From Streptacidiphilus melanogenes (GTDB taxonomy: Bacteria > Actinomycetota > Actinomycetes > Streptomycetales > Streptomycetaceae), in NCBI RefSeq assembly GCF_000787835.1, contig NZ_BBPP01000005.1, positions 135,315 to 199,314 on the forward strand: DNA of 64,000 nt, read 5' to 3'. The notes beneath the pieces were generated by a model. That model searched no databases, was not told the origin of the DNA, and saw only the letters and a program-made list of their open reading frames with translations. This document shows positions 20,875 to 40,146 of the stretch, in pieces. The translations under genes were made by a program, and so were the position numbers. Every line of letters starts with the position of its first letter. Within the stretch, counting starts at the first letter, position 1.

Positions 20875-22710
20875 CTACCGGTCGTCCATCCCGGCCAGCA
20901 CCAGGGCGAGCCGGTCCGTCCCCTGCGCGGTGACCCGGACCGGCACGCCCCAGTCCTGCTGGTGCACGTGGCAGGTCGGGAACTCGATCGCCGGGTCCGC
21001 GTCGCAGGACGCGGCCATGGCCGAGACGTGCAGCACGCCCTCGGTCACGTCCGGGTTCAGGGTCAGCTCGCGCCGCAGCGCGGTGTCCGCGCCGCCGCCC
21101 GCGAGGATCAGCTCCGGCGGCGTGGAGCTGACCAGCAGACGGGTGGCCGGGCCGTAGGTCTCGTCCAGCTTCTGCCCGGTGGGCGCGGTGAACACGACGT
21201 CCAGGGCGAGCGTGCCGCCCGCGATCTCGGTTGCGGGCCGCTGCGTCCGGTGCGCGGCGGCCTCCACCTGCACCGCCTCCTCCGGCAGCCGCAGCCGGGT
21301 CAGCCGGTGCCGCGCGGACTCGATCACCACGATCTCGTCCCCGTCGACCACCGCCCCGGACGGCTCCCGCAGGTCGGTGGCGAGCGTGCTCACCTCGCCC
21401 GTCTCCGGATCGAACCGGCGCAGCGCGTGGTTGTACGTGTCCGCGATCGCGACCGACCCGTCCGGCAGGACGGTGACCCCGAGCGGGTGCTGCAGCAGCG
21501 CCTGCGCGGCGTCGCCGTCCCGGTGCCCGAAGTCGAACAGCCCCGTGCCGACGGCGGTCCGCACCTCGTGCGTCCCGGCCTCGACGTACCGCACGGCGGA
21601 CGTCTCCGAGTCGGCCACCCACATCCGGCCCCCGTCCGCGGCGACCGCCAGCCCGGACGGCTGCGCGAACCACGCCTCGGCGGCGGGCCCGTCGACCAGG
21701 CCCTCGTTCGTCGTCCCGGCCTCGACCTGGACCGTGTCGGCGTCCGGGTCGTAGCTCCACAGCTGGTGCGTCCCGGCCATGGCGATCCACACCCGGCCGT
21801 CGAACCAGGCCACGTCCCACGGCGACGACAGGTCCACGGCCCTGGCCGGACCGCTCGTCGCCGAGTTCTGCCACCACTGCCGCCCGGTCCCGGCGAGCGT
21901 CGTCACCTCACCGGTGCTGAGGTTCACTCCGCGCAGCGCGTGGTTGACCGTGTCGGCCACCACGACGTCGTACGGCCGACCCCCGCTCTCGCCCTCGACC
22001 AGGGCCACCCCTTGAGGCTCGCTGAACCGCGCGGCCTCGGCCTTCCCGTCCGTGAACCCGCGCTCACCGCTGCCGATCCGGCGCACGACGGTCTCCCCGT
22101 CCGCGGCCAGCTCGACCAGGCTGTGATGGCCCGAGTCCGCCACCAGGTACCCGCCCCCGGGCAGCCGGACCGCCTTGCCGGGGAACTTCAGCGCCCCGGG
22201 CACGGCCTCCGGCGCCACGTACGGCCCGTCCCCGCGCCGCAGCGTCCCCTTCGCCTCGTGCTCCGCCTCCAGCTCCGCCACCAGCGCGGCGATCGCATGC
22301 GCATGCCCCTCCCCGGCATGCTGCGCGACGACGTACCCCTCGGGATCGATCACCACGAGCGTCGGCCACGCCCGCACGGCGTACTGCTTCCACGTCGCGA
22401 GCTCCGGGTCGTCCAGCACGGGGTGTTCCACCTCGTACCGCGCCACGGCATCCACCACGGCCTGGTGCTCCGCCTCGTGCACGAACTTCGGCGAGTGCAC
22501 CCCGACGATCACCAACGTCTCCCGATGCGCCTCCTCGAGCTCCCTGAGCTCGTCGAGGACATGCAGACAGTTGATGCAGCAGAAGGTCCAGAAGTCTACA
22601 ACGACGCACTTACCTCGCAGGTCCGCGAGGGTGAGGTCCTTGCCGCCGGTGTTGATCCATCCGCCCTTGCCGACCAGTTCGGGGGCGCGAACGCGTGCAC
22701 GTGATGCCAT
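20875..22710 (-). CDS. thioredoxin-NHL repeat protein, 5' end supplied by the integrated element
   Basis: Protein of 611 residues from ATG 22710. A thioredoxin-like domain (about 1-150, redox motif in FWTFCCINCLH) is followed by NHL beta-propeller repeats (DGPYVAPEAVPGALKFPGKAV, GVALVEGE, VADTVNHALRGVNL and similar). A thiol-disulfide role is likely. The first ~41 codons belong to the AICE: they form half of the 123-bp end repeat, and the displaced original copy remains at 39675-39818. The two versions differ at only three residues (Ile19/Leu, Cys35/Ile, Val38/Leu), so the reading frame is restored with conservative changes. An in-frame ATG at 22728 exists, but homology is strongest from 22710. 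Confidence 0.92.
   Translation of the reverse strand: MASRARVRAPELVGKGGWINTGGKDLTLADLRGKCVVVDFWTFCCINCLHVLDELRELEEAHRETLVIVGVHSPKFVHEAEHQAVVDAVARYEVEHPVLDDPELATWKQYAVRAWPTLVVIDPEGYVVAQHAGEGHAHAIAALVAELEAEHEAKGTLRRGDGPYVAPEAVPGALKFPGKAVRLPGGGYLVADSGHHSLVELAADGETVVRRIGSGERGFTDGKAEAARFSEPQGVALVEGESGGRPYDVVVADTVNHALRGVNLSTGEVTTLAGTGRQWWQNSATSGPARAVDLSSPWDVAWFDGRVWIAMAGTHQLWSYDPDADTVQVEAGTTNEGLVDGPAAEAWFAQPSGLAVAADGGRMWVADSETSAVRYVEAGTHEVRTAVGTGLFDFGHRDGDAAQALLQHPLGVTVLPDGSVAIADTYNHALRRFDPETGEVSTLATDLREPSGAVVDGDEIVVIESARHRLTRLRLPEEAVQVEAAAHRTQRPATEIAGGTLALDVVFTAPTGQKLDETYGPATRLLVSSTPPELILAGGGADTALRRELTLNPDVTEGVLHVSAMAASCDADPAIEFPTCHVHQQDWGVPVRVTAQGTDRLALVLAGMDDR
22588..22710. repeat. left end repeat (attL) with element-donated gene 5' end
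   Basis: This 123-bp stretch aligns with 39696-39818 at 111 of 123 positions. CCAGAAGT (22588-22595) is the likely crossover core: leftward is the host gene body, rightward the element's replacement for codons 1-41. Differences cluster near the core (7 within the first 35 bases) and are mostly silent, as expected if the element captured another strain's gene start. Confidence 0.88.
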
Positions 22711-22890
22711 GCACCAATCCAACAGCATCCGCGTGCCGAAACCTTCCCTGGCTCTGGCGCGGGGCGAGAGGGCTAACTAGGATTCGAGTAAACGTTCGAT
22801 TATGAGCAAGGGGTTCAGTTGCTCGCGGCTAGGTGGTGTCTGTGGTTCATTTCCATGCGCAAATTACTGGAGTGGAGTAGGCTTCCGCGC

Positions 22891-23699: not shown

Positions 23700-24893
23700 A
23701 TGCACCTCGTTCACCGTCCCGCACCTCAGGTCGGTGATGTAGCGCGCCTGTTCGATGGCAGGCGTCTTCGGTTGGCCCGTCAGTTGGCGGGCCTCCGCAA
23801 GAATGCTCTCGCCGCGATGATCGGGAAGACTCCCACGGCTGTTGCCTCCTATGAGAATGGCACCAAGCGACCAGCTGCCGCGACAGTGGCTCAGCTCTGT
23901 CTCTCACTTGGGGTGGAGCCTGCATTTTTTCTCTCCGGTCCCGGAGAAATTGATTTCTCCGAGCGGTCCCCGCACTTTCGCTCGCTAAGGTCCACAACGC
24001 AGATCTCTCGGGATCAGGCAGCCGCCTATGGGCTGGCGACGATTGATGCAGCTGCTTCACTGGAAAGGCATGTGGAATTTCCCGAAGTTAATGTATTGCC
24101 ATTTCCGGTAGACGTGGATTTGGAAATTATCCAGCTTCCAGAGCGTGCCGCGCGTGAGCTTCGTTTTCACTGGAAGATCCCTGACGGGCCGGTGGGGCAC
24201 TTGGTGAGAATTGCCGAGAATCAAGGAATCTTGGTGGTCTTCAGTCCTGTTCAAGCCGCCTCCGTGGACGCCTACTCGTTTGATAGTCGTGTGCGCCCGG
24301 TGATTGTGCTGAATCCGGTCAAGCAAGACTACTTCCGCCAGCGCTTTGATGTGGCTCACGAGATCGGCCATCTGGTGATGCATGCGGACTCGGAGCCAGG
24401 GGGGCGAAAAATTGAAGATCAGGCGCAGGCCTTTGCGGCAGAATTCTTGATGCCTGCGGAGCAGATGAGGGACATTTTGCCGTCATCTGCGGACTGGCCA
24501 CGGCTCTCTCAGATCAAACAAACATGGGGTGTTAGTCTCCAGGCGCTCCTATATCGCTCCCGAAGCCTAGGCGTTATGAGTGAGGTTACGTACCGCAACG
24601 CCATCACTTACCTTTCGGCGAAGGGGTGGAGGCGACAGGAGCCAGGGGTGATGCCCGCGCTTGAGCAGCCGTCCCTAATGGCCCAAGCGGTCAGCTTGCT
24701 TGAAGAGGATGGCGTAAAGCTGGGCGATATTGCGTATGAGGCGAGGGTCCCGCTTTCGTTGCTTGAAACGATTGTTGCCCGTACGCCTCAATTCCCCGTA
24801 GGCGGTTCATGGGGCAACGGTTCGGACGCCGCGTCACTTCCTCATGGTGTCAGCTCCATCCTGTCGGCAAGCCGGTTTGGCAAGGAAGGATAG
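23700..24893 (+). CDS. XRE-HTH and ImmA/IrrE metallopeptidase fusion
   Basis: Protein of 397 residues. An XRE helix-turn-helix lies at about 13-70 (ARQLAGLRKNALAAMIGKTPTAVASYENGTKRPAAATVAQL). A gluzincin domain of the COG2856 type follows, with the zinc motif HEIGH in FDVAHEIGHLVMH (about 217-223) and a downstream glutamate in QAQAFAAEFLMP. Such proteins cleave repressors to switch mobile elements on, or act as antitoxins or defence regulators. Coupling to the upstream unknown gene suggests the two act together. Codons and GC content are clearly below the window average, pointing to separate acquisition. Confidence 0.88.
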   Translation: MHLVHRPAPQVGDVARLFDGRRLRLARQLAGLRKNALAAMIGKTPTAVASYENGTKRPAAATVAQLCLSLGVEPAFFLSGPGEIDFSERSPHFRSLRSTTQISRDQAAAYGLATIDAAASLERHVEFPEVNVLPFPVDVDLEIIQLPERAARELRFHWKIPDGPVGHLVRIAENQGILVVFSPVQAASVDAYSFDSRVRPVIVLNPVKQDYFRQRFDVAHEIGHLVMHADSEPGGRKIEDQAQAFAAEFLMPAEQMRDILPSSADWPRLSQIKQTWGVSLQALLYRSRSLGVMSEVTYRNAITYLSAKGWRRQEPGVMPALEQPSLMAQAVSLLEEDGVKLGDIAYEARVPLSLLETIVARTPQFPVGGSWGNGSDAASLPHGVSSILSASRFGKEG

Positions 24894-24948: not shown

Positions 24949-26118
24949 CTAATCAACGGAGTCAGGGGTTGCGCTTAGCTCAGCTTCAACCTCCGCCACT
25001 ACTTGCTCGCTCTGCGCAGTGTCCCCAGCCAGCCGAAGCAGGTCCGCAGACATCATGCGGAAAGTGACGCCGTAGGTTTCGTGACTCCAGAATTTCCGGA
25101 GCACGTTCAATGCCTCGTCGTATTTCCCCATGGCGCTGAGCACTCTGGAAAATTCCCCCGCTTCAATGTCGTTTGGCTGCCCTATTGAGCGGCACAGGCT
25201 CTCTGCTTCTTCAAGTTTTCCCTGAAGGCTAAGCGCTCTGATTAGGTGGATTCTAATATCGGAGTCATTTACTAGCGGTGATGCCTTTGCGAATGACTCT
25301 GCAGTTTGAAACTTCCCAGACCCGATGAGCATCTCCAGATATGATTCCGAGCAATTCTTGTGACTGGGATCGATTTCGGTTGCACGCCGGTGGTAGATCT
25401 CGGCCTCGTCGTAGAGTGCAAGTTCCTCCAGATAGAGGCCGACGAACCACGCGTATGTCGCATTGTTCGGGTCGAGCCTAAGGGCGCGCTTTTGGTGTTG
25501 AATCGCGCCGTCCCAGTCTTCCAGTAGGTTGGCAAGCATGTCTGCGATGTAATTTGCCGAGCGCGCCGTCCCCATCTCCAAATCCCTAAGATCTTCGAGA
25601 ATCTCGACCATTTCCCCCCGGCGTCCTAGTTCATTCAGCGCGTCTAGATATGGCTCGATGAGCCCGGTGCGCCGTCGACTTTTTATTCGTGGGGCCAAAT
25701 ATTCGAGAATCTCCTCGTGCTTGCCTTCCTGTCGCAGCTTCCTGGCTGCATGAAAAGCAAGCATGTCTGCTCCGAGGTTTGGATCGTAGCTCGAAAGCAT
25801 CTTGTATCGGCCGGCATGCCCGTCGGGCGTGGCGCGATCAGGATCCATCTCACCCGTGTTCAACTCGCGCGAGGACTCCAAGAGCGCACGCTTCCACAGC
25901 GTCCGTATCTCCTCGATGTCCCCGTTGATCGCCTCAACGATGAGTTCGATCGCCCCCCAGCGAGGAAGACGCTTGCCAGACAACGCCTGATGTACGGTGC
26001 TGTGGCTGATGACCAGGGTCTTGGAGGCGATGTCGCGGACGCTCGGTTGCCCCGCATCCAAGCGGAGCTCTCTGAGTCGAGCGGCCAAGGCCTGCCTTGA
26101 TGCGTCATTTCCTGCCAC
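24949..26118 (-). CDS. HTH-TPR regulatory protein
   Basis: Protein of 389 residues, read from GTG 26118 because GGGGGG lies five bases upstream; in-frame starts back to 26217 would lengthen it. The N-terminus is an XRE-like helix-turn-helix (RLRELRLDAGQPSVRDIASKTLVISHSTVHQALSGKRLPRWG). The rest is tetratricopeptide-like helices, including QHQKRALRLDPNNATYAWFVGLYLEELALYDEAEIYHRRATEIDP. This is the layout of peptide- or ligand-sensing regulators, or of signalling scaffolds in actinobacteria. It is AT-richer than neighbours. It converges on the XRE/ImmA gene with a 55-bp gap. Confidence 0.8.
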   Translation of the reverse strand: MAGNDASRQALAARLRELRLDAGQPSVRDIASKTLVISHSTVHQALSGKRLPRWGAIELIVEAINGDIEEIRTLWKRALLESSRELNTGEMDPDRATPDGHAGRYKMLSSYDPNLGADMLAFHAARKLRQEGKHEEILEYLAPRIKSRRRTGLIEPYLDALNELGRRGEMVEILEDLRDLEMGTARSANYIADMLANLLEDWDGAIQHQKRALRLDPNNATYAWFVGLYLEELALYDEAEIYHRRATEIDPSHKNCSESYLEMLIGSGKFQTAESFAKASPLVNDSDIRIHLIRALSLQGKLEEAESLCRSIGQPNDIEAGEFSRVLSAMGKYDEALNVLRKFWSHETYGVTFRMMSADLLRLAGDTAQSEQVVAEVEAELSATPDSVD

Positions 26119-26150
26119 TTGTGCCCCCCAGCGTTGGTGTCTCATTTTGT

Positions 26151-26175
26151 AAAACGTTACAGTCGCGGACGTTTT
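26151..26175. promoter_or_regulatory. inverted repeat in the HTH-TPR promoter region
   Basis: AAAACGT-(N11)-ACGTTTT lies 33 bp before the GTG at 26118. It is also part of a GTAAAACG/GTAAACG motif that recurs upstream of other cargo genes. Autoregulation by the HTH protein is a reasonable guess. Confidence 0.45.
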
Positions 26176-26255
26176 GCGCCGTCGCTGCTTGTATTGCTTT
26201 CTGTAAGGTTGCTCCATAATGTAAACGAGACGAGCAGGGCCGCGACGATTGAATC

Positions 26256-26424: not shown

Positions 26425-26922
26425 TTACCCCCATGAATCCAGAGAGACGCTTGGCCCGTCGCTGAGGTAGCTGAGCAAGGCAGCATCAGTCGTAGACACA
26501 AAATTGCGAGGGATGCGATCGGTGTTGATCCACGCTACCTCGGAGTGCTTGTCCGGTTCCCCGTTGGTCAGGTCACCCGACCAGCGGTGCGCCGCGAACA
26601 CAATGGTGAGAAAGCCGTTGGGAGCTTCGACGCCCCGGGCTCCATGGATCACGTGGACGAGTCGAAGATCTTCAGGGGAGACGACGAGACCGGTCTCTTC
26701 CTTCAGTTCGCGGACTGCGGTCTCCGTGATCGGTTCTCCCGGCTCGCTCTTGCCGACGGGGAGGTCCCACATGCCCTGGGCGAACTTCGCCTTCTGGCTG
26801 CGGCGGAGTAGTGCCACGCGCTGAGCTTCGACGTCGTGGACGATGACGGCGGCGACCAGCAGGGTCATCGACTCCGTGGCGGGCGGGAGCTGGGTGGGCT
26901 GGTCTGTGGTCTGCTGGGCCAC
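26425..26922 (-). CDS. NUDIX hydrolase
   Basis: Protein of 165 residues from GTG 26922, with AGGAAGGA about nine bases upstream. The complete Nudix box is present as GKSEPGEPITETAVRELKEETGL, fitting GX5EX7REUXEEXGU exactly, so it should hydrolyse a nucleoside-diphosphate-linked substrate with Mg2+ in the cytoplasm. Flanking WDLPVG and HRWSGDLTNGEPDKHSEVAWI are typical of MutT/ADP-ribose-type members. It lies 29 bp downstream of the HTH-TPR regulator on the same strand and is probably cotranscribed. NUDIX genes are common AICE cargo; substrate unknown. Confidence 0.92.
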   Translation of the reverse strand: MAQQTTDQPTQLPPATESMTLLVAAVIVHDVEAQRVALLRRSQKAKFAQGMWDLPVGKSEPGEPITETAVRELKEETGLVVSPEDLRLVHVIHGARGVEAPNGFLTIVFAAHRWSGDLTNGEPDKHSEVAWINTDRIPRNFVSTTDAALLSYLSDGPSVSLDSWG

Positions 26923-26951: not shown

Positions 26952-28304
26952 TTAGATCAGTGCCTCGCGTGCGCGGCGTTCCAGATCGGTGGCTCCTGGG
27001 ACTCCGCGTCTACGGTAGGTGGCCAGGTGAGGACGGATCGAGGAGATCGCCTTTCTGGTGCGATCGGATGACATGCCGTCCATGAGGTCGAGCGCGCGAC
27101 CCCAAGTCGCGATCGCTTCGTCAGCTCGGGCCTGAGCGGCCAAGCTGTCGCCGAGATCGGCGTAGGTGAGCGCGTGGACGCGCTTGTACTTCTCGGCGTC
27201 CCAGCGGATCAGTGCGGCCCGGTGCTGCTGCTCGGTGCCCCGGTGGTCACCGAGGTCCGTCAGGGTCCTGGCGGTGTGGCTGGCGACAGTGCCGGCCGCT
27301 GGGCCGGTCACGAGTGAGAACGTGGGCTGCTCGTCCGTGGTGCGGGTGAGGGCGTTCTCGGCGGCCAGTAGGGCGTGGGCTGCGGCGGCCTTGTCGGAGG
27401 TGGCCGCGAATGCACGTGCGTGGGTGATGTGGAGTAGGGCCTCGGTCTGGCCATCCACGTGACCGAGGCTGCGGCTGAGCGCGTTCTCGATCAGGTCCAC
27501 GCAGTGGCGCGGCTGCTTGAGGCTCAGCGCCTGGTGGGCCAGAGCCCGCATCATCCACCCGGCGTGACCCTTGGGGTCCGCCTCGACGGCCAGCTGATAT
27601 CCGACCTGGTAGTAGTGCTGCGCAGCGCCCTCTTGCCCGAGGTCGTGGTGCTTCCAACCGGCGAGGTAGGCGAGCTCGGCCACGGTCCCGAACGCCTCGC
27701 GCCGTGTGGCCTCGTCGCAGAAGCGTCCGGTGAGCATTGGTGCGGCAGTGTCGGCCAGGTAGGCGGTGACCGTGGTCAAGCCGTGCCCTCCGCCGAGTCG
27801 TTCGTCCGCCGCGCTGAACACAGCGGTGATCTGGCGGATGACTTCGACTTCTGCGCGCCCGACCGCGGCGGTCCCGGTGCGGGCCCGCATGAGTCGGGAG
27901 GCTGGCTCGGGGTCGTACAGCAGCGGCATTGCCACGCCAGCGGCAGTGAAGGCGGCCACAGCGAGGAAGGTGCGGCGTTCAACATCAGCGCGGCCGAGGT
28001 TCGCGGCGGCCTCGATCGGGTCAGCGCTCGCAGCGAGCGACGCTTCCGGCGTGGCAAAGCCGAGCTCTGCCAGAGTGATCGGGCGACGGGCCCGCCTCGA
28101 CATCGCCTCAGAGATGTACTGGCCGGTCTGACCGGTGGGCTCGGCTCCCCTGACCCAGTGGGCGACTGCCGACTTGTTCGTCAGCAGACTCTCGCCGTTC
28201 TCGGCCGCGATTCGCTGGACGGCCCTGGCTAACGACTCATACGTCCATCCACCGTCTGAAATCGCCTGCCTGAAACGGTGATTGGGCTCCTTGCGTGTGG
28301 CCAC
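26952..28304 (-). CDS. HTH transcriptional regulator with TPR-like domain
   Basis: Protein of 450 residues from GTG 28304, six bases after a GGGGGA site. The N-terminus (about 10-75) is a helix-turn-helix (SDGGWTYESLARAVQRIAAENGESLLTNKSAVAHWVRGAEP). A long helical region of TPR type follows (YYQVGYQLAVEADPKGHAGWMMRALAHQALSL, LTYADLGDSLAAQARADEAIATWGRALDLMDGM). This family accompanies AICEs and methyltransferase cassettes in Streptomyces. It is divergent from the peptide-methyltransferase operon and shares a 192-bp promoter region, so it is the likely regulator of that operon and of the NUDIX gene. Two GTAAACC direct repeats (28328-28334, 28337-28343) lie 24 bp upstream. Confidence 0.85.
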   Translation of the reverse strand: MATRKEPNHRFRQAISDGGWTYESLARAVQRIAAENGESLLTNKSAVAHWVRGAEPTGQTGQYISEAMSRRARRPITLAELGFATPEASLAASADPIEAAANLGRADVERRTFLAVAAFTAAGVAMPLLYDPEPASRLMRARTGTAAVGRAEVEVIRQITAVFSAADERLGGGHGLTTVTAYLADTAAPMLTGRFCDEATRREAFGTVAELAYLAGWKHHDLGQEGAAQHYYQVGYQLAVEADPKGHAGWMMRALAHQALSLKQPRHCVDLIENALSRSLGHVDGQTEALLHITHARAFAATSDKAAAAHALLAAENALTRTTDEQPTFSLVTGPAAGTVASHTARTLTDLGDHRGTEQQHRAALIRWDAEKYKRVHALTYADLGDSLAAQARADEAIATWGRALDLMDGMSSDRTRKAISSIRPHLATYRRRGVPGATDLERRAREALI

Positions 28305-28496
28305 GATCGATCCCCCGAGCTGGAGCTGTAAACCGCGTAAACCACTGTACGTGGCGGGAAGTGTACCCGCCGTGGCTTCAGCTGGGTTCACTGAATAGCA
28401 GCGGCTCCGACCTGCGGCGCTGCGGCTCTCTGGCGGCCTCGGACTCGGGGACACCAAAGGCAACATCCGATGTCCGATCAGAATTGGTGGTGAGGC

Positions 28497-28757
28497 ATGG
28501 CAGTGAAGACCGCACGTATCGAGGCGCATCCGTGGTCGGTGCCTCCGGTGCCTGGTGCGCACCTGTACGACTGCGAAGCCGGCCGGGTGGGCGTCTTCCA
28601 AGGCAAGACGCCGCACGATGGCCGGTACTGGCTGCGGCCGGTCGGGGGCGGGGTCGAGTGGGACGCGCGACTGGCGGACCTGTATCCGGCCGACCGGGAA
28701 GAGGAGTTGCGGGCGAAGGTCGAAGCGGCCAACCGTCGCAGTCGGCGGGGTTGGTGA
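28497..28757 (+). CDS. small conserved-looking protein, first gene of the peptide-methyltransferase operon
   Basis: Protein of 86 residues from ATG 28497 with GGTGAGG close upstream. The compact sequence contains HLYDCEAGRVGVFQGKTPHDGRYWLRPVGGGVEWDA and a charged helical C-terminus (REEELRAKVEAANRRSRRGW). No signal peptide or membrane segment. Its stop overlaps the next start (TGATG), so the genes are translationally coupled. I recognise similar short proteins beside methyltransferase cassettes in Streptomyces but no function. Confidence 0.7.
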   Translation: MAVKTARIEAHPWSVPPVPGAHLYDCEAGRVGVFQGKTPHDGRYWLRPVGGGVEWDARLADLYPADREEELRAKVEAANRRSRRGW

Positions 28758-29008
28758 TGGGGACGACGACCCGCTACCGCTTCCGTGAGTACAGCGTGCG
28801 TGCTGTGGCCGACCCGTGCAGCCTGCCGACGCTCAGCGCCGTGTGCGTGACCGGGGAAGAGGCCGACTGCGGTGCCTCCTCCGGTGAGGTGCACAGCGCT
28901 GAGGAACTGGTGCGCTGGATCGCGGAGCACTGTGCGCAGACCCAGCATGAGCTGTTCGAGCGCCAGGAGCGCGCCACCGTTCGCGCTGAGGCGGGCGTGT
29001 GGTTGTGA
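28757..29008 (+). CDS. small protein of the DUF7848 type
   Basis: Protein of 83 residues from ATG 28757, coupled at both ends by overlapping start and stop codons. RYRFREYSVRAVADP, then CVTGEEADCGASSGEVHSAEELVRWIAEHCAQTQHELFER, matches my memory of a Streptomyces family now called DUF7848; the two cysteines and the terminal histidines could bind a metal. The function of the family is unknown. Its constant place before peptide and methyltransferase genes suggests an accessory role in the same system. Confidence 0.7.
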   Translation: MGTTTRYRFREYSVRAVADPCSLPTLSAVCVTGEEADCGASSGEVHSAEELVRWIAEHCAQTQHELFERQERATVRAEAGVWL

Positions 29009-29532
29009 TCGCGACCACGCAGCAGCGGCGGCGACAGCTCTGGGAGCGTGCGGAACGCATGCGGATCGGGGTCATGACCGTGCGGCAGAGCCGGGAGGCC
29101 TTGCGTCTGATCCGGGCGGAGGCGGCTCGGCGGCTGCCCGCGGAAGCCCTGGAGTGGTTCGACCCCGGCGACTACCTGGTTCATGAGCGGCCGGGTGTGT
29201 CGCCGCTGCCAGCGCGCGTCCCGCGTGTGCCTGACGTCCGCTTCGCCGCCGTGGGGTGGCCGACCCAACGACACCCGCTCCGGCCATGTGTTCCCCCACC
29301 GTGGACCGGAGCGGGCCGCAAGAACCGCCGGGCAAGCCTCCCGGTGGCATCGTGTAAGGCGACTGAACAGGAGGTGCCAGCATGCGTGTTGGCCCGATCT
29401 CGCAGAACGGGGGCGACGGCGGCGACAGCCTTCCCGGCACCCCGTGGACCCCGCCGCCGGACCCGCCTTCCCCTGACGGCGGCCCGCCTCCCGGAGACGG
29501 GGACCACCGCAAGGGATGAGCACCGTACCTGA
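29005..29532 (+). CDS. hypothetical protein, 3' part overlapping the peptide gene
   Basis: Frame of 175 residues from GTG 29005, overlapping the previous stop (GTGA). Residues 1-65 look genuine: helical and charged (RRRQLWERAERMRIGVMTVRQSREALRLIRAEAARRLPAEALEWFDPGDYLVHERPG). Beyond about residue 85 the composition becomes Arg/Pro/Ala-rich like non-coding GC-rich DNA, and the frame runs across the whole peptide gene. A frameshift or decayed 3' end is likely, with the true product near 90 residues. Family not recognised. Confidence 0.5.
   Translation: MIATTQQRRRQLWERAERMRIGVMTVRQSREALRLIRAEAARRLPAEALEWFDPGDYLVHERPGVSPLPARVPRVPDVRFAAVGWPTQRHPLRPCVPPPWTGAGRKNRRASLPVASCKATEQEVPACVLARSRRTGATAATAFPAPRGPRRRTRLPLTAARLPETGTTARDEHRT
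29274..29315 (+). other. 10-bp intercistronic hairpin before the peptide gene
   Basis: CCCGCTCCGG (29274-29283) and CCGGAGCGGG (29306-29315) form a perfect stem with a 22-base loop, 66 bp before the peptide start. No T-run follows, so it may be a processing or attenuation element that raises peptide mRNA over the upstream genes, as in many peptide operons. Confidence 0.5.
29382..29519 (+). CDS. candidate RiPP precursor peptide, Asp/Gly/Pro-rich, 45 residues
   Basis: A short gene with an ideal GGAGGTG ribosome site (29370-29376) and a stop overlapping the methyltransferase start (ATGA). The N-terminus MRVGPISQNGGDGGDS precedes a Pro-rich core with PDPPSPDGG and a GDGDHRKG tail. Seven of 45 residues are Asp: 12, 15, 27, 32, 39, 41 and one more ambiguous only by counting convention is absent, so six are clear; three precede Gly (12, 32, 39). 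Asp-Gly is the pair most prone to aspartimide formation once methylated. There is no Cys, so thioether chemistry is excluded. Calling it the substrate of the adjacent methyltransferase is inference from operon structure and known precursor-PIMT pairs. Confidence 0.6.
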   Translation: MRVGPISQNGGDGGDSLPGTPWTPPPDPPSPDGGPPPGDGDHRKG

Positions 29533-30700
29533 GCAGGAGGGCCGCGCCAGTGACGAGCTGGTGCGGTCCCTTCTCAACGCTGGCTCCCTGACGCCCGACT
29601 GGGCCGAGAGCTTCCACGCGGTGCCGCGCTCGTGGTTTCTGCCCGATCGGTACTGGAGCCACGACATGACGACCGGCCGCAACGTCGCGGTGAGCCGGGA
29701 GGAGGACCCGGAGGAGTGGGCCCGCCAGGCGTTCGCCGACGTGCCGATCGTGACCCAGTGGGACGACGGCCGGCACTCTGGCACCGAGCCGGGCACCGTG
29801 CCGACGAGTTCCGCGTCCATGCCGTCCGTGGTCGCTTCCATGCTCCGGGACCTGGGCGTGCACTCCGGCATGCGGGTGTTGGAGATCGGCACCGGTACCG
29901 GTTGGAACGCGGGCCTGCTGACCCACCGCCTTGGCAGCGAGAACGTCGTCAGCCTGGAGATCGACGCGGCCGTCACGGTGAGGGCCCGCACCGCGCTCAC
30001 CCGCGCGGGTCTGCATCCGACCGTTGTGTGCGCGGACGGCGCGCTCGGCTACCCGGACGCGGCGCCCTACAACCGGGTGATTGCCACGGCCGGAGTCCGC
30101 ACGATTCCCCGCGCGTGGCTGGAGCAGTCCGACTCCGGAGGGCTCATCCTCGCCCCGTTCGGCACGCACTACAGCAACGAGGACGCGCTCGTGAATCTCA
30201 CGGTGGGAAACGACGGCTCCGCGTCGGGCCCTTTCCTGCGGCCGGTGGAGTTCATGAAGCTGCGGGCCCAACGGCTGGACTGGGACCGCTTCAAGGACCA
30301 CGTCACCCTGCCCTACCCCGGCAATGCGGCAAGATCCTCGACACACCTGCGGCTGGCCGATCTCGGCGACCGATGGTCGGCGCAGCGCTTCGCCGTGGGC
30401 CTGGCCGTGCCCCATGTCGCGCACGTGGTCAACCGCGCCCCGGCAGGTGACGGCTCCTCGGTGTGGCTCTTCAGCACGACCGAACGTGCCTGGGCCTGCG
30501 CCGAGTTCCCCGACGATGGAGAACCGGTCGTCTACCAGGATGGTCCGAGACGGTTGTGGGATGAGGTGGAACGCGCGCTCGGCTGGTGGGCCGACCAGCA
30601 GCGCCCGCCGTTGGACTGCTTCGGGCTCTCGGTGTCGTCCGAGGGCGAGTTGCGGCCCTGGCTAGCCGACCGGAGCAACCCTGTGCCGTCGTTCGCCTGA
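29516..30700 (+). CDS. PIMT-like O-methyltransferase with C-terminal extension
   Basis: SAM-dependent methyltransferase of 394 residues. The N-terminal half follows L-isoaspartate methyltransferases: VPRSWFLPDRYW, TSSASMPSVVASML, and SAM motif I VLEIGTGTGWNAGLL (about 122-136). Housekeeping PIMTs have about 215 residues; this one has some 170 more (from about 225), as in RiPP-linked enzymes that methylate an Asp side chain so that it collapses to aspartimide. It overlaps the stop of a 45-residue Asp/Gly-rich peptide gene. A double hairpin follows its stop. Methyltransferase: firm. Peptide aspartimidylation: inferred. A protein-repair role is the alternative. Confidence 0.88.
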   Translation: MSTVPEQEGRASDELVRSLLNAGSLTPDWAESFHAVPRSWFLPDRYWSHDMTTGRNVAVSREEDPEEWARQAFADVPIVTQWDDGRHSGTEPGTVPTSSASMPSVVASMLRDLGVHSGMRVLEIGTGTGWNAGLLTHRLGSENVVSLEIDAAVTVRARTALTRAGLHPTVVCADGALGYPDAAPYNRVIATAGVRTIPRAWLEQSDSGGLILAPFGTHYSNEDALVNLTVGNDGSASGPFLRPVEFMKLRAQRLDWDRFKDHVTLPYPGNAARSSTHLRLADLGDRWSAQRFAVGLAVPHVAHVVNRAPAGDGSSVWLFSTTERAWACAEFPDDGEPVVYQDGPRRLWDEVERALGWWADQQRPPLDCFGLSVSSEGELRPWLADRSNPVPSFA

Positions 30701-32489: not shown

Positions 32490-32687
32490 ATGAACGGCAC
32501 TCAGTGGATGGACCGCCTCCTGGCTCAGGCGGCGCGCAACGGGGGCCTGCTGGCGGACCTGGAGGAGCGGATGACCCGCTTGGAGCGCTCTACCGGCGGG
32601 GCTTGCCCGACTGTCGCTCTTCCAGCGCGTCGATACGCTGCAACGCCTGCTGGATCTGCTCCTGCTGGCTCTCAAGCAGCGTCATGA
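32490..32687 (+). CDS. possible small helical protein overlapping the GntR gene end
   Basis: A 65-residue frame from ATG 32490 with GGGGAAG six bases upstream. The first 35 residues read as a sensible helix (MNGTQWMDRLLAQAARNGG, LLADLEERMTRLERS); the remainder is antisense to the GntR 3' end and low quality. It lies directly after the heptamer array. Real translation is uncertain. Confidence 0.35.
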   Translation: MNGTQWMDRLLAQAARNGGLLADLEERMTRLERSTGGACPTVALPARRYAATPAGSAPAGSQAAS

Positions 32688-32994
32688 GCCGTTCGAGGTC
32701 GGCGGCGGGAACCTGCACCATCTCGCCGCCGGCCTCCGGGCCCGCACCCTGGGCCTGCTTCGGGGTCTGGCGCACGAACGTGCCGCGCCCCTGGACGGCG
32801 TAGATCAAGCCCTCTTCCCGCAGCACACGCATCGCGTTGCGCAGGGTCATCGGGGCGACGCCGAAGCGCTTCTCCAGCTCCGGCGCTCCCGGTAGCTGGT
32901 CGCCGACCTTGTAGCGGCCCCTGGCGATGTCCGCCCGTAGCTCGTCGGCGGCCCGCAGGTAAGGGGGGCGCTCGTCGGCGGGGGGCACAGTCAT
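32590..32994 (-). CDS. GntR family repressor of the AICE
   Basis: Protein of 134 residues from ATG 32994. The GntR winged helix covers about 12-75: YLRAADELRADIARGRYKVGDQLPG, ELEKRFGVAPMTLRNAMRVL, REEGLIYAVQGRGTFVR. A short C-terminal coiled coil follows (ADLERLMTLLESQQEQIQQALQRIDALEE) instead of a ligand domain. Compact GntR proteins such as KorSA of pSAM2 repress AICE replication and transfer genes. It is divergent from the rep/tra operon and faces a CTAG-centred palindrome, its probable operator. Confidence 0.9.
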   Translation of the reverse strand: MTVPPADERPPYLRAADELRADIARGRYKVGDQLPGAPELEKRFGVAPMTLRNAMRVLREEGLIYAVQGRGTFVRQTPKQAQGAGPEAGGEMVQVPAADLERLMTLLESQQEQIQQALQRIDALEERQSGKPRR

Positions 32995-33067
32995 AGCACC
33001 AGGGTAGCCCCCTCTAACCCCCATAGCCCAGTAGTCCGCGACACGCCAACGAAAAACCCCTCTTGCT

Positions 33068-33086
33068 CCTCTAGCTCCCCTAGAGG
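33068..33086. promoter_or_regulatory. palindromic operator before the transfer-replication operon
   Basis: CCTCTAG-CTCCC-CTAGAGG is a perfect 7+7 inverted repeat, 58 bp before the SCO3933-family start and 74 bp before the GntR start. A half-site CCTCTAA lies nearby at about 33012-33018. Position in the divergent promoter makes it the best candidate GntR operator. Confidence 0.6.
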
Positions 33087-33144
33087 TACTGTTCTCGGCG
33101 TCGGCACTCCCGCCGACGTCACGGCCCAACCCTTTGGAGTCCTC

Positions 33145-33519
33145 ATGGCTCGCATCACCGTCCGCCCCGACCTGACCGGCGTGACCCACATCGTCGCCGT
33201 GCCCCCGACCGTCAAGGTCAAGGACATGGAGACCGGCGAGATCGCCGTTGACCGGGACGGCAAGACCCGCCTGTTCACCGTCCAGCTGATGGAGACCTTC
33301 GGCCTCCAGGCCCAGGTCATCAAGGTCACCGTCCCCGAGACGGGCCTGATCGACGGCCTGGCCCTCGGCGCGATCGTCCGCCCCGTCGGCCTGATCGCCT
33401 CCCCGTGGGGCAACGCGTTCGGCGGTCAGGTCACCGTGGGTCTCGCCTACCGCGCCGAGTCCCTGGAACTGGCCAACCCCACGGCGGCCCCGGCCAAGGC
33501 CGAAGCCGCCGCGAAGTGA
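33145..33519 (+). CDS. SCO3933-family AICE regulatory protein
   Basis: Protein of 124 residues from ATG 33145. The segments VPPTVKVKDMETGEIAVDRDGKTRLFTVQL and VIKVTVPETGLIDGLALGAIVRPVGL match a family named for SCO3933 of the SLP1 element, found at the head of AICE transfer operons. A plasmid-regulatory or single-strand-binding-like role has been suggested; none can be proven from sequence. First gene of the operon running through TraSA, DUF2637 and Rep, and the likeliest target of the GntR repressor. Confidence 0.85.
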   Translation: MARITVRPDLTGVTHIVAVPPTVKVKDMETGEIAVDRDGKTRLFTVQLMETFGLQAQVIKVTVPETGLIDGLALGAIVRPVGLIASPWGNAFGGQVTVGLAYRAESLELANPTAAPAKAEAAAK

Positions 33520-33619: not shown

Positions 33620-35074
33620 ATGACGCCCGCCGTGGCCCCCTCGCCGTCCCCGAGCCCGACCGGCACCCCGCTGCCCTCGCTCGACCCCTCGAACCTGGTC
33701 CCCTCCTGGCTGCCACTCCTCGGCGTCGCCGTGGCCCTGGTCCTCCTGGTCTGGCTGACCGTCAAGACCGTGACCTACATCCGCGCCGACACCGAGACCC
33801 GCGCCAGCATCCGCCAGGCCTTCCGCATCCGCCGGACCTGGCCCCGCCTGGCCCGCAACCTCGGCCTGACCACCACCGACCGGACCCCGACCCTGGCACA
33901 GCAACTCCGCACCTCCCCCGAGCGTCCCAAGCCGGAACCGCGCATCCTGTTCCCGAAGGTCACCACCACGGCGGACCGCTTCGGAGTCCAGATCCGCATG
34001 CGCACCATTGCGAAGGTGGGCCTGGCCGAAGTCCAGCGCGAAGCCGACCACCTGGCCGAAGCCTGGGGCTGCACCCGCGTCTCCGTCGACGTCGACAAGC
34101 CCGGACAGCTCCTGCTCCGCGCCGTGCGCAACGAACCCCTGCACACCCCGATCCACTACACGCCCACCGGCAAGCCCACCAAGGACCTGGGCGTGTGGGA
34201 CCTCGGCGTGGACGAGTACGCCCAGGCCGTCGCCCTGCGCATGGCCAACGTCCCCGGCGCGGCCGTCGCCGGCCTCCCCGGCTACGGGAAAAGCTCCCTC
34301 ATCAACGCCCTGATCGCGCGTCTGGCCCCCTCGGCGGCCGTCCAGTTCATCGTCCTGGACGGCAAGGTCAGCCGCGCCGACGAGGGCGACTACGCCGACG
34401 TCATCGACCGCATCGCCGAATTCGTGGGCGACGACCTGGACGCGGCCAACCAGCTGTTCAAGCGCCTCGTGCAGCTGCGCCGCGACCGCTCCTCGGCCAT
34501 CCGCCGCGTGCTGGGCACCACGAACATGTGGGACAAGGGCCCCACCCCCGCATGGCCACTGCTGGTCGTCATCGTGGACGAGGCCCACACCTACTTCCGC
34601 GACTACAAGGGCAACGACCCCGAGACCAAGCGCCTCGCCGCCCTGTCCGCCGAGAACGCGCGCCTGGTCGAAGACCTGGTCAAGAAGGGCCGCAGCGTCG
34701 GCATCACAACCCTCCTGGCCACCCAGAAGGCCACCGGCGACGCCATCCCCACGTTCATCCGCGACGTGTGCTCGGTCGCCCTGTCCTTCGCCCAGAAGAC
34801 CACCGACGCCGCCGTCGCCGCGCTGGGCGAGGACATCCGCAACTGGCCCGACGCCTCCCCGATCAACCTCCTGGACGACCGCTTCGTCGGCGTCGCCGTC
34901 ATGGTCCGCCAGGGAAAGCCCGGCTTCCTGCGCGTCCGCATCCCCTACATCAACCCCGACCGGTGCGCCCAGGTCGCCCAGAACTGCGGACACCTCACCG
35001 CCGACCCCTTCCAGCTCCTCACCAAGCTCACTGGGCCGCGCCTGGTCACCGACGCCCTGGACGACGCGGCCTGA
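33620..35074 (+). CDS. FtsK/SpoIIIE-type conjugal translocase (TraSA-like)
   Basis: Membrane-anchored DNA pump of 484 residues. One transmembrane helix lies at about 29-52 (WLPLLGVAVALVLLVWLTV). The motor domain has Walker A GLPGYGKSS (about 218-226) and Walker B LLVVIVDEAH (about 314-323), plus a sensor-like TLLATQKATGD. In Streptomyces conjugation a single such protein moves double-stranded plasmid DNA between hyphae after binding repeats at clt. Slightly shorter than FtsK chromosome pumps, as expected for AICE versions. The C-terminal DNA-recognition helix would decide whether the 31.6-kb iterons are its target. Confidence 0.92.
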   Translation: MTPAVAPSPSPSPTGTPLPSLDPSNLVPSWLPLLGVAVALVLLVWLTVKTVTYIRADTETRASIRQAFRIRRTWPRLARNLGLTTTDRTPTLAQQLRTSPERPKPEPRILFPKVTTTADRFGVQIRMRTIAKVGLAEVQREADHLAEAWGCTRVSVDVDKPGQLLLRAVRNEPLHTPIHYTPTGKPTKDLGVWDLGVDEYAQAVALRMANVPGAAVAGLPGYGKSSLINALIARLAPSAAVQFIVLDGKVSRADEGDYADVIDRIAEFVGDDLDAANQLFKRLVQLRRDRSSAIRRVLGTTNMWDKGPTPAWPLLVVIVDEAHTYFRDYKGNDPETKRLAALSAENARLVEDLVKKGRSVGITTLLATQKATGDAIPTFIRDVCSVALSFAQKTTDAAVAALGEDIRNWPDASPINLLDDRFVGVAVMVRQGKPGFLRVRIPYINPDRCAQVAQNCGHLTADPFQLLTKLTGPRLVTDALDDAA

Positions 35075-35107: not shown

Positions 35108-35836
35108 ATGCCGAACCCGCACGTCACCCGCGTCACCGTGACCGCCGTCATGGGCCTGATCGCCGCCCTGGCCTTCACGTTCAGCTTCGGCAACGTCTGG
35201 GCCCTCGCCCTGCGCCTCGGCATCCCGCACCCCATCGCCCCACTCATCGCACCGATGGTGGACCTGTCCGTCGTCGGCCTCCTCGCCGCCCTGCGCCACC
35301 TGTCCCTGACCGGCATCGACCGCCGCGAACTGCGACCCGCGATCCGGCTCATGCACACCTCCGGCCTGCTCACCCTCGCCCTGAACACCGCCGAACCCCT
35401 GATCCTCCACCACTGGGGCCGCGCCGCCCTCGACGCCGTCGCCCCGCTCCTCCTGCTCGGCTGGGGCGCCGTCGGCCCCCTCCTCCTTCGCCATCTCCAC
35501 ACACCTCTAACCCCCCTCGCGCCTATGACGGGGCCTGTTGGTCCGGAAACCCACAGCCCTTCACCAGTCGAGACCTCCACGGCCCTGCCGCACCCCACCA
35601 GCCCCGACCCGACGCCCGCACCCGAACCCGTCACCGAACCCCCGGCCCCCGAACCCAACCCGGCCCCGGCCGCGCCGCTTCCAGTCCCGGCCGGACTGCT
35701 GGTCACCGCCCGTCAGCTCGACCAGCAACACCGCGCGCAGCACGGCCACCCCATGACCGCCACCCAACTCGGCACCCGCATGGGACTGCCCAGCCCCATG
35801 GCCAACGCCGTCCACGCCGAGCTGATCACCGCCTGA
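35108..35836 (+). CDS. DUF2637/Spd-like membrane protein
   Basis: Protein of 242 residues. Four hydrophobic helices occupy about 1-125 (VTAVMGLIAALAFTFSFGNVWALA, PLIAPMVDLSVVGLLAAL, SGLLTLALNTAEPLIL, VAPLLLLGWGAVGPLLL). A Pro-rich linker follows (about 140-200), then a short helix-turn-helix-like tail (TARQLDQQHRAQHG, TATQLGTRMGLPSPMANAVHAEL). DUF2637 proteins lie between tra and rep in AICEs and are thought to help plasmid spread within mycelium. A GAAGGAGA ribosome site precedes ATG 35108. Confidence 0.85.
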   Translation: MPNPHVTRVTVTAVMGLIAALAFTFSFGNVWALALRLGIPHPIAPLIAPMVDLSVVGLLAALRHLSLTGIDRRELRPAIRLMHTSGLLTLALNTAEPLILHHWGRAALDAVAPLLLLGWGAVGPLLLRHLHTPLTPLAPMTGPVGPETHSPSPVETSTALPHPTSPDPTPAPEPVTEPPAPEPNPAPAAPLPVPAGLLVTARQLDQQHRAQHGHPMTATQLGTRMGLPSPMANAVHAELITA

Positions 35837-35987: not shown

Positions 35988-37430
35988 ATGACCGCTGACC
36001 TGAGCCCCGCCGCACGGGAACTGCTCCACCTCGCCCAGCACCCGCGCTTCGACCGCATCACCGCGTCCGTGGAAGCGGTCCGCGGCTGCACCCGGCCCAT
36101 CCAGCTCTTCGGACACGCCACCACCCACGACGCCGCGACCGGCGAGGTGCTGCACCACTTCGACACCCGCGACGAACCCTTCGGGCGGCTCCTGGTCCCC
36201 TGTGGCAACCGCCGCGAAAGCCGCTGCCCGTCCTGCTCTCGCCTCTACTCCGCTGACACCTTCCACCTGATCCGCGCCGGACTCGCGGGCGGCAAGAACG
36301 TCCCCGACACCGTCACCACTCACCCGCGCGTCTTCGCCACCCTCACGGCGCCCAGCTTCGGCCCCGTCCACAACCAGCCCACCACCCGAAGCGGCAAGCG
36401 ACGCCCCTGCGCCTGCGGCATCCACCACCTCGACACCGACCCCGCCATCGGTATCCCGATCACTCCCGCCGCCTACGACTACGCCGGGGCCGTGCTCTTC
36501 AACGCCCACGCCGGAATGCTCTGGGCCCGCTTCACCACCTACCTGCGCCGCGCCGTCGCCAAGGCCGCCGGGCTCAAGGTCAAGGAACTGCCCGACCACG
36601 CCCGGCTCTCGTTCGCCAAGGTCGCCGAGTTCCAAAAGCGCGGCCTGGTCCACTTCCACGCCATCGTCCGCATCGACGGACCCGACGGCCCGACCACCAC
36701 CCCGCCGACCTGGGCCACCACCGAACTCCTCGACGCCGCGATCCGCGAAGCCCACGAGCGCACCGCCCTCACCGTGATCTCCAACAGGGTCGGCGAACGC
36801 GAGATGCGCTGGGGTGCTCAGCTCGACGTGCGCCCCATCACCACCAGCGGCGCGCATGACGACCGCGAGCTGACCGAACAGGCCGTCGCCGCCTACGTGG
36901 CCAAGTACGCCACCAAGAGCGCCGAATCCTCCGGCACCGTGGACCGCTCCCTCCACTGCAATCCCTGCAACGGGCGCGGCCACGTAGCCGACCCCGCCGG
37001 ACACGTCCGCCAGTGCAAGCACTGCCACGGCACCGGACAGGCCGAACCCATCCGCGACCTTCGCGTCGCCACCCACGTCCGCGCCATGATCCGAACCTGC
37101 TGGGACCTCGGAGCGCTCCCAGAGTTCGCCGACCTCAAGCTCTGGAAGTGGGCCCACATGCTCGGCTTCAAGGGCCACTTCTCCACCAAGTCCCGCCGCT
37201 ACTCCACCACCCTGGGCCAGCTCCGCGACGCCCGCCGCAGTTGGCGCGCCGAGACCAACCGCAGCCACCACGGTCTGCCCCCGATCGACGAGACCACCAC
37301 CCTCGTCGTCAGCAGTTGGCAGTTCCTCGGCACCGGCTACACCCCCGCCGAACAGCTCATCGCCGACACCGTCCGCCACAACCTCGCCGTACTTCAACAG
37401 CACAAACGAGAAGGGGGTGAGACCGCATGA
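35988..37430 (+). CDS. RepSA-like rolling-circle replication initiator
   Basis: Protein of 480 residues behind GGAAGGAG. An N-terminal CPSC zinc knuckle lies near residue 82. The HUH metal motif is LVHFHAIVR (about 219-227), and the catalytic tyrosine region is AYVAKYATKS (about 301-310). A second zinc ribbon CNPCNGRGH...CKHCHGTG follows (about 323-345). RepSA proteins nick one strand and start rolling-circle copying of the excised AICE before transfer. The 151 bp before it contain no gene. Its stop overlaps the next start (ATGA), linking replication and excision functions. Confidence 0.93.
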   Translation: MTADLSPAARELLHLAQHPRFDRITASVEAVRGCTRPIQLFGHATTHDAATGEVLHHFDTRDEPFGRLLVPCGNRRESRCPSCSRLYSADTFHLIRAGLAGGKNVPDTVTTHPRVFATLTAPSFGPVHNQPTTRSGKRRPCACGIHHLDTDPAIGIPITPAAYDYAGAVLFNAHAGMLWARFTTYLRRAVAKAAGLKVKELPDHARLSFAKVAEFQKRGLVHFHAIVRIDGPDGPTTTPPTWATTELLDAAIREAHERTALTVISNRVGEREMRWGAQLDVRPITTSGAHDDRELTEQAVAAYVAKYATKSAESSGTVDRSLHCNPCNGRGHVADPAGHVRQCKHCHGTGQAEPIRDLRVATHVRAMIRTCWDLGALPEFADLKLWKWAHMLGFKGHFSTKSRRYSTTLGQLRDARRSWRAETNRSHHGLPPIDETTTLVVSSWQFLGTGYTPAEQLIADTVRHNLAVLQQHKREGGETA

Positions 37431-38110
37431 CAATCGTTCCCAAGTCGCCGGGTGACGTCGTCGGAGCGTTCCACTTCGGCCGGCTTGTTGCGGGCCTTCC
37501 CCAGACGCTCTCCACCTGGTGCTTCACCACCCGCGATCAGGGGGCGGCGGAAGCTGTTGCTGAGCTTCTCGGCGGGGAGAGCATCGCCTCGCCCCGTGGG
37601 TACTTCGAGGTGGACACACCATGCGCCGCACTTCCGGTCACGCTGGACAGTGATGCTGCTGTAACCGTCGAGATGGAGCATTGGAAGGCACGTGCAGCCG
37701 CACGGCGGTGCAACGGCGCGTTCTTCCAGTCCGAAGGGCAGGCATCCGAGGGGGAGCCGTGCGGATGCCCGCAGGCCATCGAAGACCGTAGGGCCATGGC
37801 CACACGAGGGACGGGGGCAAGCCCTGTGACCACGGTGCGGTTCACGCTGGCCGACGCGCCCGAGCTGGGCGTTTTCGCCTTCGAGTCCCGCGCGTGGGAC
37901 ATGGCCGAGCACGCGGAAGACCTGGTTGCTCAGCTCGTCGGCTCGGAGGGCGCACGCAAGGCTGAACTCGTGTTGAGCGAAAGTGAGTTCACTTCCACGG
38001 ACGGTCTCCGGGTGATGTACCGCCGTCCGCTGGTGCAGCTCGCGGCGCTTAGCGGGAAGGTTGCCTCGTTCCCATCCCGCAGTGCAACCGAACTGAGTCA
38101 AGCAGCCTGA
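37427..38110 (+). CDS. Gp3-like recombination directionality factor
   Basis: Protein of 227 residues, coupled to rep by overlapping codons. Its pattern fits the phiC31/phiBT1 Gp3 family as I remember it: an opening GAFHFGRLVAGLPQTLSTWCFTTRD, then AEAVAELLGGE, a cysteine pair in ARRCNGAFF and CGCPQA, and a closing VRFTLADAPELGVFAFESRAWDMAEHAEDL. Gp3 binds the large serine integrase and flips it from attP x attB integration to attL x attR excision. Its place between rep and the convergent integrase (1 bp between stops) is right for that. Coexpression with Rep would tie excision to replication (inference). Confidence 0.75.
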   Translation: MTIVPKSPGDVVGAFHFGRLVAGLPQTLSTWCFTTRDQGAAEAVAELLGGESIASPRGYFEVDTPCAALPVTLDSDAAVTVEMEHWKARAAARRCNGAFFQSEGQASEGEPCGCPQAIEDRRAMATRGTGASPVTTVRFTLADAPELGVFAFESRAWDMAEHAEDLVAQLVGSEGARKAELVLSESEFTSTDGLRVMYRRPLVQLAALSGKVASFPSRSATELSQAA

Positions 38111-39674: not shown

Positions 39675-39818
39675 TCAGTGCATCGTTGTGAACTTCCAGA
39701 AGTCGAGTACGACGATCTTCCCCCGCAGATCCGCGAGGGTCAGATCCTTGCCGCCGGTGTTGAGCCATCCGCCCTTGCCGACCAGCTCGGGGGCGCGAAC
39801 GCGTGCACGTGATGCCAT
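39675..39818 (-). pseudogene. displaced original 5' end of the thioredoxin-NHL gene
   Basis: From ATG 39818 the frame reads as the first 41 residues of the thioredoxin-NHL protein (MASRARVRAPELVGKGG...VVLDFW). It then enters element DNA and stops after six foreign residues (KFTTMH). The redox CCINC motif is lost, so this 47-residue remnant cannot work. It probably keeps the gene's native promoter, now idle or driving toward the integrase. Confidence 0.88.
39696..39818. repeat. right end repeat (attR) with displaced host gene start
   Basis: Pairs with 22588-22710 (111 of 123 identical). CCAGAAGT at 39696-39703 is the shared core. Rightward to 39818 is the original host 5' end, complete to its ATG; leftward is element DNA. 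Excision at the cores would rejoin codons 1-41 here with the gene body at 22588 in frame. Confidence 0.88.
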
Positions 39819-40146
39819 ACCTTCATCCAACCCCATCGGGCTGTCGGTGCATTCCAGTCAGTCCCTGGACGTTGCTTGGCCAGGTAGTTCGCTCGGTGGT
39901 ACGCCTTCGCAGTCCCCGGTCGGCGTTCGACCTCCACGACCGCGGCCCAGTGGGCAACGAACGCCTGGACGGGGAAAGCTGCCCCCGGGCTCTGCTTCGC
40001 GGGCTCCGGGGCGGCGGTCACGGTCGTCGGCGCGGTCACGATTGCGGGCAGCATCCGAAGAACACGGGCGGTCGAGTAGCGGCCTGCTGCGAGGCTTTTC
40101 ATCCGGATCGACAGCGATGAGCAACGCTCCGTATTACAGTTGGAAT
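39819..40146. other. host DNA upstream of the displaced gene start
   Basis: 328 bp with no firm gene. A leftward frame of about 100 residues (40102 inward) contains VERRPGTAKAYHRANYLAKQRPGTDW, has no recognised family, and runs out of frame into the attR remnant, so it may be a truncated old gene. The native thioredoxin-NHL promoter should lie here. Confidence 0.45.

Follow-up and report, generated by a model that had tools for sequence, protein, structure and literature searches.

We found that a 64,000-nt stretch of the Streptacidiphilus melanogenes genome (contig NZ_BBPP01000005.1, positions 135,315 to 199,314; hereafter the window) holds a gene for a 45-aa peptide followed by one for a 394-aa methyltransferase, and that this pair is very probably a type I pamtide (imiditide) system, carried on a 17.1-kb element resembling an actinomycete integrative and conjugative element (AICE) and modifying Asp32 of the peptide. 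The system itself belongs to a class already described; what we add is the residue assignment, a bounded element, and an association with regulators. The precursor gene runs from its ATG at 29382 to the end of its TGA at 29519 (29382..29519, + strand), with a Shine-Dalgarno sequence, AGGAGGT, at 29369..29375 (+ strand), 6 bases 5' of the start codon. The gene for the peptide L-aspartyl O-methyltransferase (PAMT), which has the core of a protein L-isoaspartyl O-methyltransferase (PIMT) plus a C-terminal domain, occupies 29516..30700 (+ strand), and the two open reading frames (ORFs) overlap by ATGA (stop/start). A preliminary description of this DNA had noted the peptide gene, its ribosome site, and the overlap with the methyltransferase gene, and all of these are present. 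We assigned the precursor from its ORF, its ribosome site, a motif found upstream in relatives, and a third-position bias, and the enzyme from family models, a tree, and a structure model.

Pamtides were defined in the main text of Lee et al. 2023 (PMC10787088), with 1539 enzymes and 1183 putative precursors; the type I precursors are described there as about 45 residues long and rich in Gly, Pro, and Asp. For SpaA/SpaM, the characterised type I pair of S. sparsogenes, species of +14 and -18 Da, modified at the conserved Asp, and hydrazine trapping were reported, with no cyclase (PMC10787088). The two-gene architecture of a precursor and a PIMT homologue has thus already been described as type I pamtides/imiditides (PMC10787088, PMC13001092), a recent class of ribosomally synthesized and post-translationally modified peptides (RiPPs) whose biological role is called open in a 2026 review (PMC13001092). 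The window precursor matches the type I description, being ~45 aa long, Gly/Pro/Asp-rich, and without CxxCxGxG. With the type I pairs SpaA-SpaM and NmaA-NmaM (of Nonomuraea maritima), the window pair shares two genes, a precursor of ~45 aa rich in Gly/Pro/Asp with a conserved Asp, an extended PIMT homologue, and no other maturase; it differs in its AICE-like carrier, its NsdA-family regulator, and the replacement of the Gly in the enzyme motif WXXXGXP. With cysimiditides/type II pamtides, it would share the primary modification of Asp by a PIMT homologue, established for those systems in the literature, whereas the window peptide has no CxxCxGxG motifs. In an S. sparsogenes assembly, we found ten matches to the window enzyme; three of the six inspected lie beside Pro-Asp-Gly (PDG) precursors, each a candidate for SpaA.

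The preliminary description had proposed a minimal system of precursor plus methyltransferase with no thioether, lasso, or graspetide enzyme present, and the comparative evidence agrees. Among the element proteins scanned (8 by NCBIfam, others by Pfam, all encoded up to 30700 or from 32590 on), no RiPP maturase family besides the methyltransferase was matched.

Conservation of the peptide was followed in 59 loci of relatives, found by searching the GTDB species genomes for patterns derived from the enzyme. We found the motif PGxP[WYF] within 700 nt upstream of the enzyme at 51/59 loci, searching for the motif without any Asp requirement; from the far-flank rate, ~3.6 instances would be expected upstream of 59 enzymes. 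Pro-Asp-Gly follows within 22 residues in 51/52 motif instances, the lone instance without it (L031) having its PDG in another frame past a proline run. Of the eight loci that lack the motif, four (L086-L089) have an enzyme that is partial or truncated, and in the other four (L041, L047, L054, and L061) it is full-length. Among core sequences, differences at codon positions 1/2/3 number 189/176/968, so that 968/1333 lie at the third position; this count used 48 distinct cores of fixed spacing and 166 pairs at most 20% apart, which are not independent. Hence, the peptide is conserved as a protein. The peptide is kept beside related methyltransferases together with its DG site, which is what the preliminary description had proposed to check.

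A separate DG-pattern search found a candidate peptide at 61/77 loci, with L053 missed by the pattern; 12/89 loci, partial or with a PCMT core only, were left out of this set, and the 77 kept include graspetide-linked ones. An upstream candidate peptide is also present at each of L003, L006, L010, and L016. Five plasmid loci were inspected among the 170 plasmid records that match the enzyme at 1e-5, some of which are probably ordinary PIMTs; a Gly-rich short ORF lies directly upstream in 5/5, and some relatives are on Streptomyces plasmids.

Several variants of the arrangement were seen. At L006, L016, and L025, the precursors beside related enzymes are of another type, GGNTSDG..., and lack the PGxPW motif. 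In Streptomyces sp. F63 (L056), a single methyltransferase is preceded by a tandem of two precursors whose tails differ (-295 to -14, counted from the enzyme match). On one contig of Streptomyces specialis, precursor and enzyme occur twice in opposite orientation (L072, L073), the enzymes being identical. A decaying copy in a close relative (G013; L028/L100) has its enzyme split into three pieces and a break in its precursor frame; the XRE-DUF5753 gene next to it looks intact.

The enzyme matches the Pfam PCMT model at E 1.1e-29. Its best NCBIfam model is TIGR04188 (graspetide-type), at 310.3 bits over nearly the whole protein and below the curated cut-off of 380, and the housekeeping pimt model gives 79.6 bits, below its cut-off of 159. 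An AlphaFold model built from 55 aligned sequences has a mean pLDDT of 91.6, and its best match among solved structures is the two-domain PIMT of Thermotoga, 1DL5 (Z 23.6, 301 aligned, rmsd 5.5, model residues 11-385). The model predicts a C-terminal extension beyond the PIMT core, and 1DL5 has one too. The PIMT-like enzyme with an extra C-terminal part of the preliminary description is therefore borne out by both the PCMT match and the alignment to 1DL5.

These results bear on a reading in which the methyltransferase does ordinary PIMT repair, or has some other protein as its substrate, and the short ORF serves as a leader that couples translation. The PCMT domain, an ATGA overlap compatible with a coupling leader, and the four full-length relatives that have no recognised peptide lean toward it; however, TIGR04188 scores 310 bits against 80 for housekeeping pimt, and both the conservation of the peptide as a protein and the motif at most of the related loci argue against it. 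We consider this reading very unlikely.

In a tree of 78 enzyme rows, a branch with support 99/96 sets eight rows, seven of them ATP-grasp-linked, apart from the other 70. The window enzyme falls in a 12-row clade (97/96), and the precursors of all 12 have a G[DSN]GxHRK-type tail. This tree was rooted at its midpoint just to draw it, and several of its long branches were flagged. An ATP-grasp homologue is present at 1/59 loci of relatives (L042, ~4 kb from the enzyme) and directly beside the enzyme at seven loci from other sets; at L018, a 52-residue ATP-grasp stretch, a fragment, lies downstream. At the window locus, no ATP-grasp maturase or graspetide precursor was found among the neighbouring proteins scanned. 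Compared with the group 13 graspetide methyltransferases (TIGR04188/TgmC), the window enzyme thus shares a 310-bit match over nearly its whole length and differs in its sub-cut-off score, in having no adjoining ATP-grasp or graspetide precursor, and in its separate tree branch.

It is extremely unlikely that the pair is a degraded graspetide cluster that has lost its ATP-grasp. The best curated model is that of a graspetide methyltransferase, and a second enzyme copy of the same genome is graspetide-linked (L002), which would suit such a history; however, the enzymes are on separate branches, many species have the same two-gene arrangement with no ATP-grasp adjoining the enzyme, and the window precursor lacks the graspetide-like core of L002. 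The L002 locus itself (G000:C51), in the same genome as the window, is a separate graspetide-type cluster with precursor, ATP-grasp, and methyltransferase, and its enzyme is one of the seven linked ones.

The preliminary description had offered Asp12, Asp32, or Asp39, each followed by Gly, as the modified residue. Of these, Asp32 (codon at 29475..29477, + strand; Gly33 next) stood, through the PDG that follows the motif in 51/52 instances, and the other two proved less conserved. In 54 distinct peptides, the position of Asp39 is Asp in 26/54, that of Asp12 is DG in 13/54, and any further DG offset is occupied in at most 16/54. These peptides were picked by the DG pattern, so that the Asp32 position is full by construction; since the set is circular for the main site, we used the motif-only count as the unbiased figure. 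Natural precursors with a single Asp give a second line of evidence: the sole Asp of the L053 precursor (given the start codon as chosen) is the Asp32 equivalent, as is that of the precursors on plasmid pshk1 and on an S. avidinii plasmid, in which Thr follows in place of Gly. Together, PDG conservation and the single-Asp precursors point to Asp32 as the predicted modified residue of the window peptide.

Modification of Asp39 (GDG), of Asp15, or of several Asp residues, rather than of Asp32 alone, seems unlikely. Asp is frequent at both positions (26/54 for Asp39 and 47/54 for Asp15); however, Asn takes the Asp39 position in the 20 PGVPNPP-tailed peptides that are paired with the same enzyme family, the single-Asp precursors have Asp at neither position, and the residue after Asp15 is Ser in the window and varied elsewhere.

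Several results weigh against our assignment of the pair as a type I pamtide system modifying Asp32. Four full-length relatives (given above) have no recognised upstream peptide, and the best NCBIfam model of the enzyme is that of a graspetide methyltransferase, though under its cut-off. The motif WXXXGXP, reported near the C-terminus for most extended (imiditide) enzymes, reads WADQQRP in the window, with Gly replaced by Gln; some relatives differ there too, and W358 and P364 are invariant in 55/55 aligned rows. The charge of the enzyme C-terminus showed no clear separation by precursor tail class (means -4.2 and -3.45). Finally, Asp15, a residue that the preliminary description had not named, is matched by Asp in so many distinct peptides that conservation by itself does not mark a single Asp as the site.

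By analogy with characterised relatives, the type I pamtide pair would act as follows. The strong ribosome site would drive translation of the 45-aa precursor, coupled to that of the enzyme, which would transfer a methyl group from S-adenosylmethionine to the Asp32 side chain of the linear peptide. Attack on this ester by the Gly33 backbone nitrogen would then release methanol and give an aspartimide, which could open to isoaspartate or aspartate. The C-terminal tail of the window peptide is basic (DHRK) and probably helps recognition, again judging from characterised relatives. The case would add a pamtide member on a conjugative-type element and points to the residue that is likely modified.

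Related loci are rich in developmental-type regulators. We found an XRE-DUF5753 (Scr1/WhiJ-type) gene within 3 kb of the enzyme start at 36/59 related loci; with stricter BLAST clustering, 22 loci have one. There are 48 XRE-DUF5753 genes in 719,163 bp versus 2.7 expected, ~18x the genome density, where the two counts come from different models (48 by a model of eight proteins from the same loci at E 1e-15, and 395 by PF19054 at E 1e-3), the expectation derives from 395 genes in 106.9 Mb of 12 host genomes picked by the analyst and not at random, and, the 59 loci being mutually related, a Poisson figure for 48 versus 2.7 is not a probability. DUF6879 shows the same trend, with 17 genes at related loci versus 0.5 expected (79 in the 12 genomes), and DUF397 is present at 26/59 related loci, a count without a genome background. 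Regulator orientation and side vary among loci, which argues against one inherited arrangement.

With a single model, we found a PF19054 gene within 3 kb of 11/26 enzyme matches in three single-contig congener genomes. In 5000 circular shifts, the mean was 0.52 and the maximum 7, so 0/5000 reached 11. By class, the 11/26 comprise HRK-tailed pamtide 3/4, NTSDG type 1/2, class not determined 7/19, and graspetide-linked 0/1, and two of the 11 are one duplicated region. Hence, the regulator link may hold for the enzyme family more widely than for pamtides.

The window pair itself has no XRE-DUF5753 neighbour: six DUF5753 genes are present in the genome (G000), and none is on the window contig (C103). 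In place of such a gene, an NsdA-family regulator (26952..28616, - strand; NF053720 358.5 bits, cut-off 75) is divergent from the pair; as the family match does not begin until residue 113, the gene probably starts near 28304. NsdA regulates differentiation negatively. Weak homologues of the NsdA family are present at L039, L056, L072, L073, L099, L130, and L131.

PMC10294661 reports for S. venezuelae that iosA, a gene for a sporulation inhibitor, is controlled by its neighbour WhiJ9 and that abaA paralogues rise when BldB (DUF397) is lost; in S. coelicolor, XRE-DUF397 pairs are reported to act on antibiotic production (PMC10364602, PMC6262351). When the main texts of PMC10787088 and PMC13001092 were searched for words on regulators, helix-turn-helix proteins, and mobile or integrative elements, this link was not found there. 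Many of the relatives' pairs adjoin XRE-DUF5753, some with DUF397 or DUF6879 in addition, as AbaA/IosA do in the WhiJ-BldB(DUF397)-AbaA/IosA loci of S. venezuelae; the window differs in having the NsdA-family regulator instead.

From this gene context, we infer that the pair would be expressed under differentiation-type regulators, and the association suggests, without proving, a role of the pair in differentiation. We tentatively propose, as a possibility that we hold to be less likely than its converse, that type I pamtides might act in Streptomyces-type differentiation control, as effectors or as signals. The pair might take the effector slot beside WhiJ/BldB-paralogue systems, the slot of AbaA/IosA in S. 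venezuelae, or, in the window element, the slot next to an NsdA-family regulator; by carrying it, conjugative elements and plasmids might adjust host development or the timing of transfer. The regulator association gives the question of pamtide function a testable genetic form.

The preliminary description had also placed the pair on a mobile element, and the element could be bounded. We found a direct repeat of 166 nt (83%) at 22582 and 39690 (window 22582-22747 and 39690-39855), 17,108 bp apart. Identical 32-nt runs within it form the left att core (22679..22710), at the beginning of a gene that encodes an NHL-repeat/thioredoxin-like protein, and the right att core (39787..39818), neither with a strand. 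The body of the NHL/thioredoxin-like gene, the integration target, spans 20875-22728. Congeners G006 and G008 each have a single, exact copy of the 31-nt search core, with aligned flanks that agree with an empty site; in G007 and G009 the core occurs twice (with one mismatch in G009). Together with the genes below, these repeats place the pair in a 17.1-kb integrated AICE-like element. ARAGORN found no tRNA genes in the window.

On its right side, the element encodes a GntR regulator (32590..33189, - strand; PF00392 E 7.5e-18), an FtsK/SpoIIIE-like transfer protein (33620..35074, + strand; PF01580 E 4.8e-08), a DUF2637 protein that is Spd-like by position (35108..35836, + strand; PF10935 E 2.2e-05), a RepSA-type replication initiator (35988..37430, + strand; PF20199 E 6.4e-152), a recombination directionality factor (RDF)-like protein (37427..38110, + strand; PF18897 E 3.2e-14), and a serine recombinase, the integrase (38112..39653, - strand; PF00239 E 1.4e-26, PF07508). 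On its left side are a helix-turn-helix (HTH) regulator with an ImmA/IrrE-like peptidase (23700..24893, + strand; PF06114, PF01381), an HTH regulator with tetratricopeptide repeats (TPR; 24949..26217, - strand; PF13560 and TPR models), and a NUDIX hydrolase (26425..26922, - strand; PF00293 E 6.5e-20). The element has in common with pSAM2-type AICEs a RepSA-type initiator, an FtsK-like transfer gene, a GntR regulator, a NUDIX gene, and direct-repeat ends, and differs in its serine recombinase with an RDF-like partner and in its target, the start of a protein gene. We call it AICE-like because of this recombinase and this target.

Two small genes lie upstream of the pair in the same direction. 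The first encodes an 86-aa protein with no assigned function (28497..28757, + strand), homologues of which are near some other pamtide loci (62% at L099, 45% at L031, and 46% at L039 and L042). The second encodes a DUF7848 protein (28757..29008, + strand; PF25232 E 7.1e-10), with homologues upstream of the enzyme at L031 and L099. A further ORF, at 28999-29532, overlaps the precursor gene in another frame.

Integration at the start of the NHL/thioredoxin-like gene seems to have happened repeatedly in the genus: G000, G007 (L127), and G009 (L128) each have two copies of the core, with different content between them. In G004, a NUDIX-like/HTH/86-aa/DUF7848/precursor/methyltransferase cassette (L099, 2182-10747) lies beside the NHL gene, and homologues of the recombinase, Rep, and transfer proteins of the window element were not found in the 20 kb examined there. 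That several congeners share a single resident cassette at the NHL site became less likely, as the G004 enzyme is 55% identical versus 92% for the NHL protein. The tandem precursors of Streptomyces sp. F63 also adjoin an NHL gene, on that gene's other side. In G007, a NUDIX remnant (94%, 124 residues) and the last 87 methyltransferase residues (98%) remain near a ClpB-like gene (L102, ~809-1427), on another contig than the doubled att cores of that genome.

A general link of such pairs to AICEs was not seen: in a search for homologues of the window element in the examined flanks of L031-L089 and L096-L102, no RepSA or transfer-protein homologue was present, and the sole recombinase homologue was at L076 (33%, ~6 kb from the enzyme).

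Just beyond the right end of the element, at 40143-40811, we found a small gene pair. The first protein matches nothing and the second has a PIN-domain match of 22.7 bits, with the Pfam cut-off at 23.6; the two genes may form a toxin-antitoxin module.

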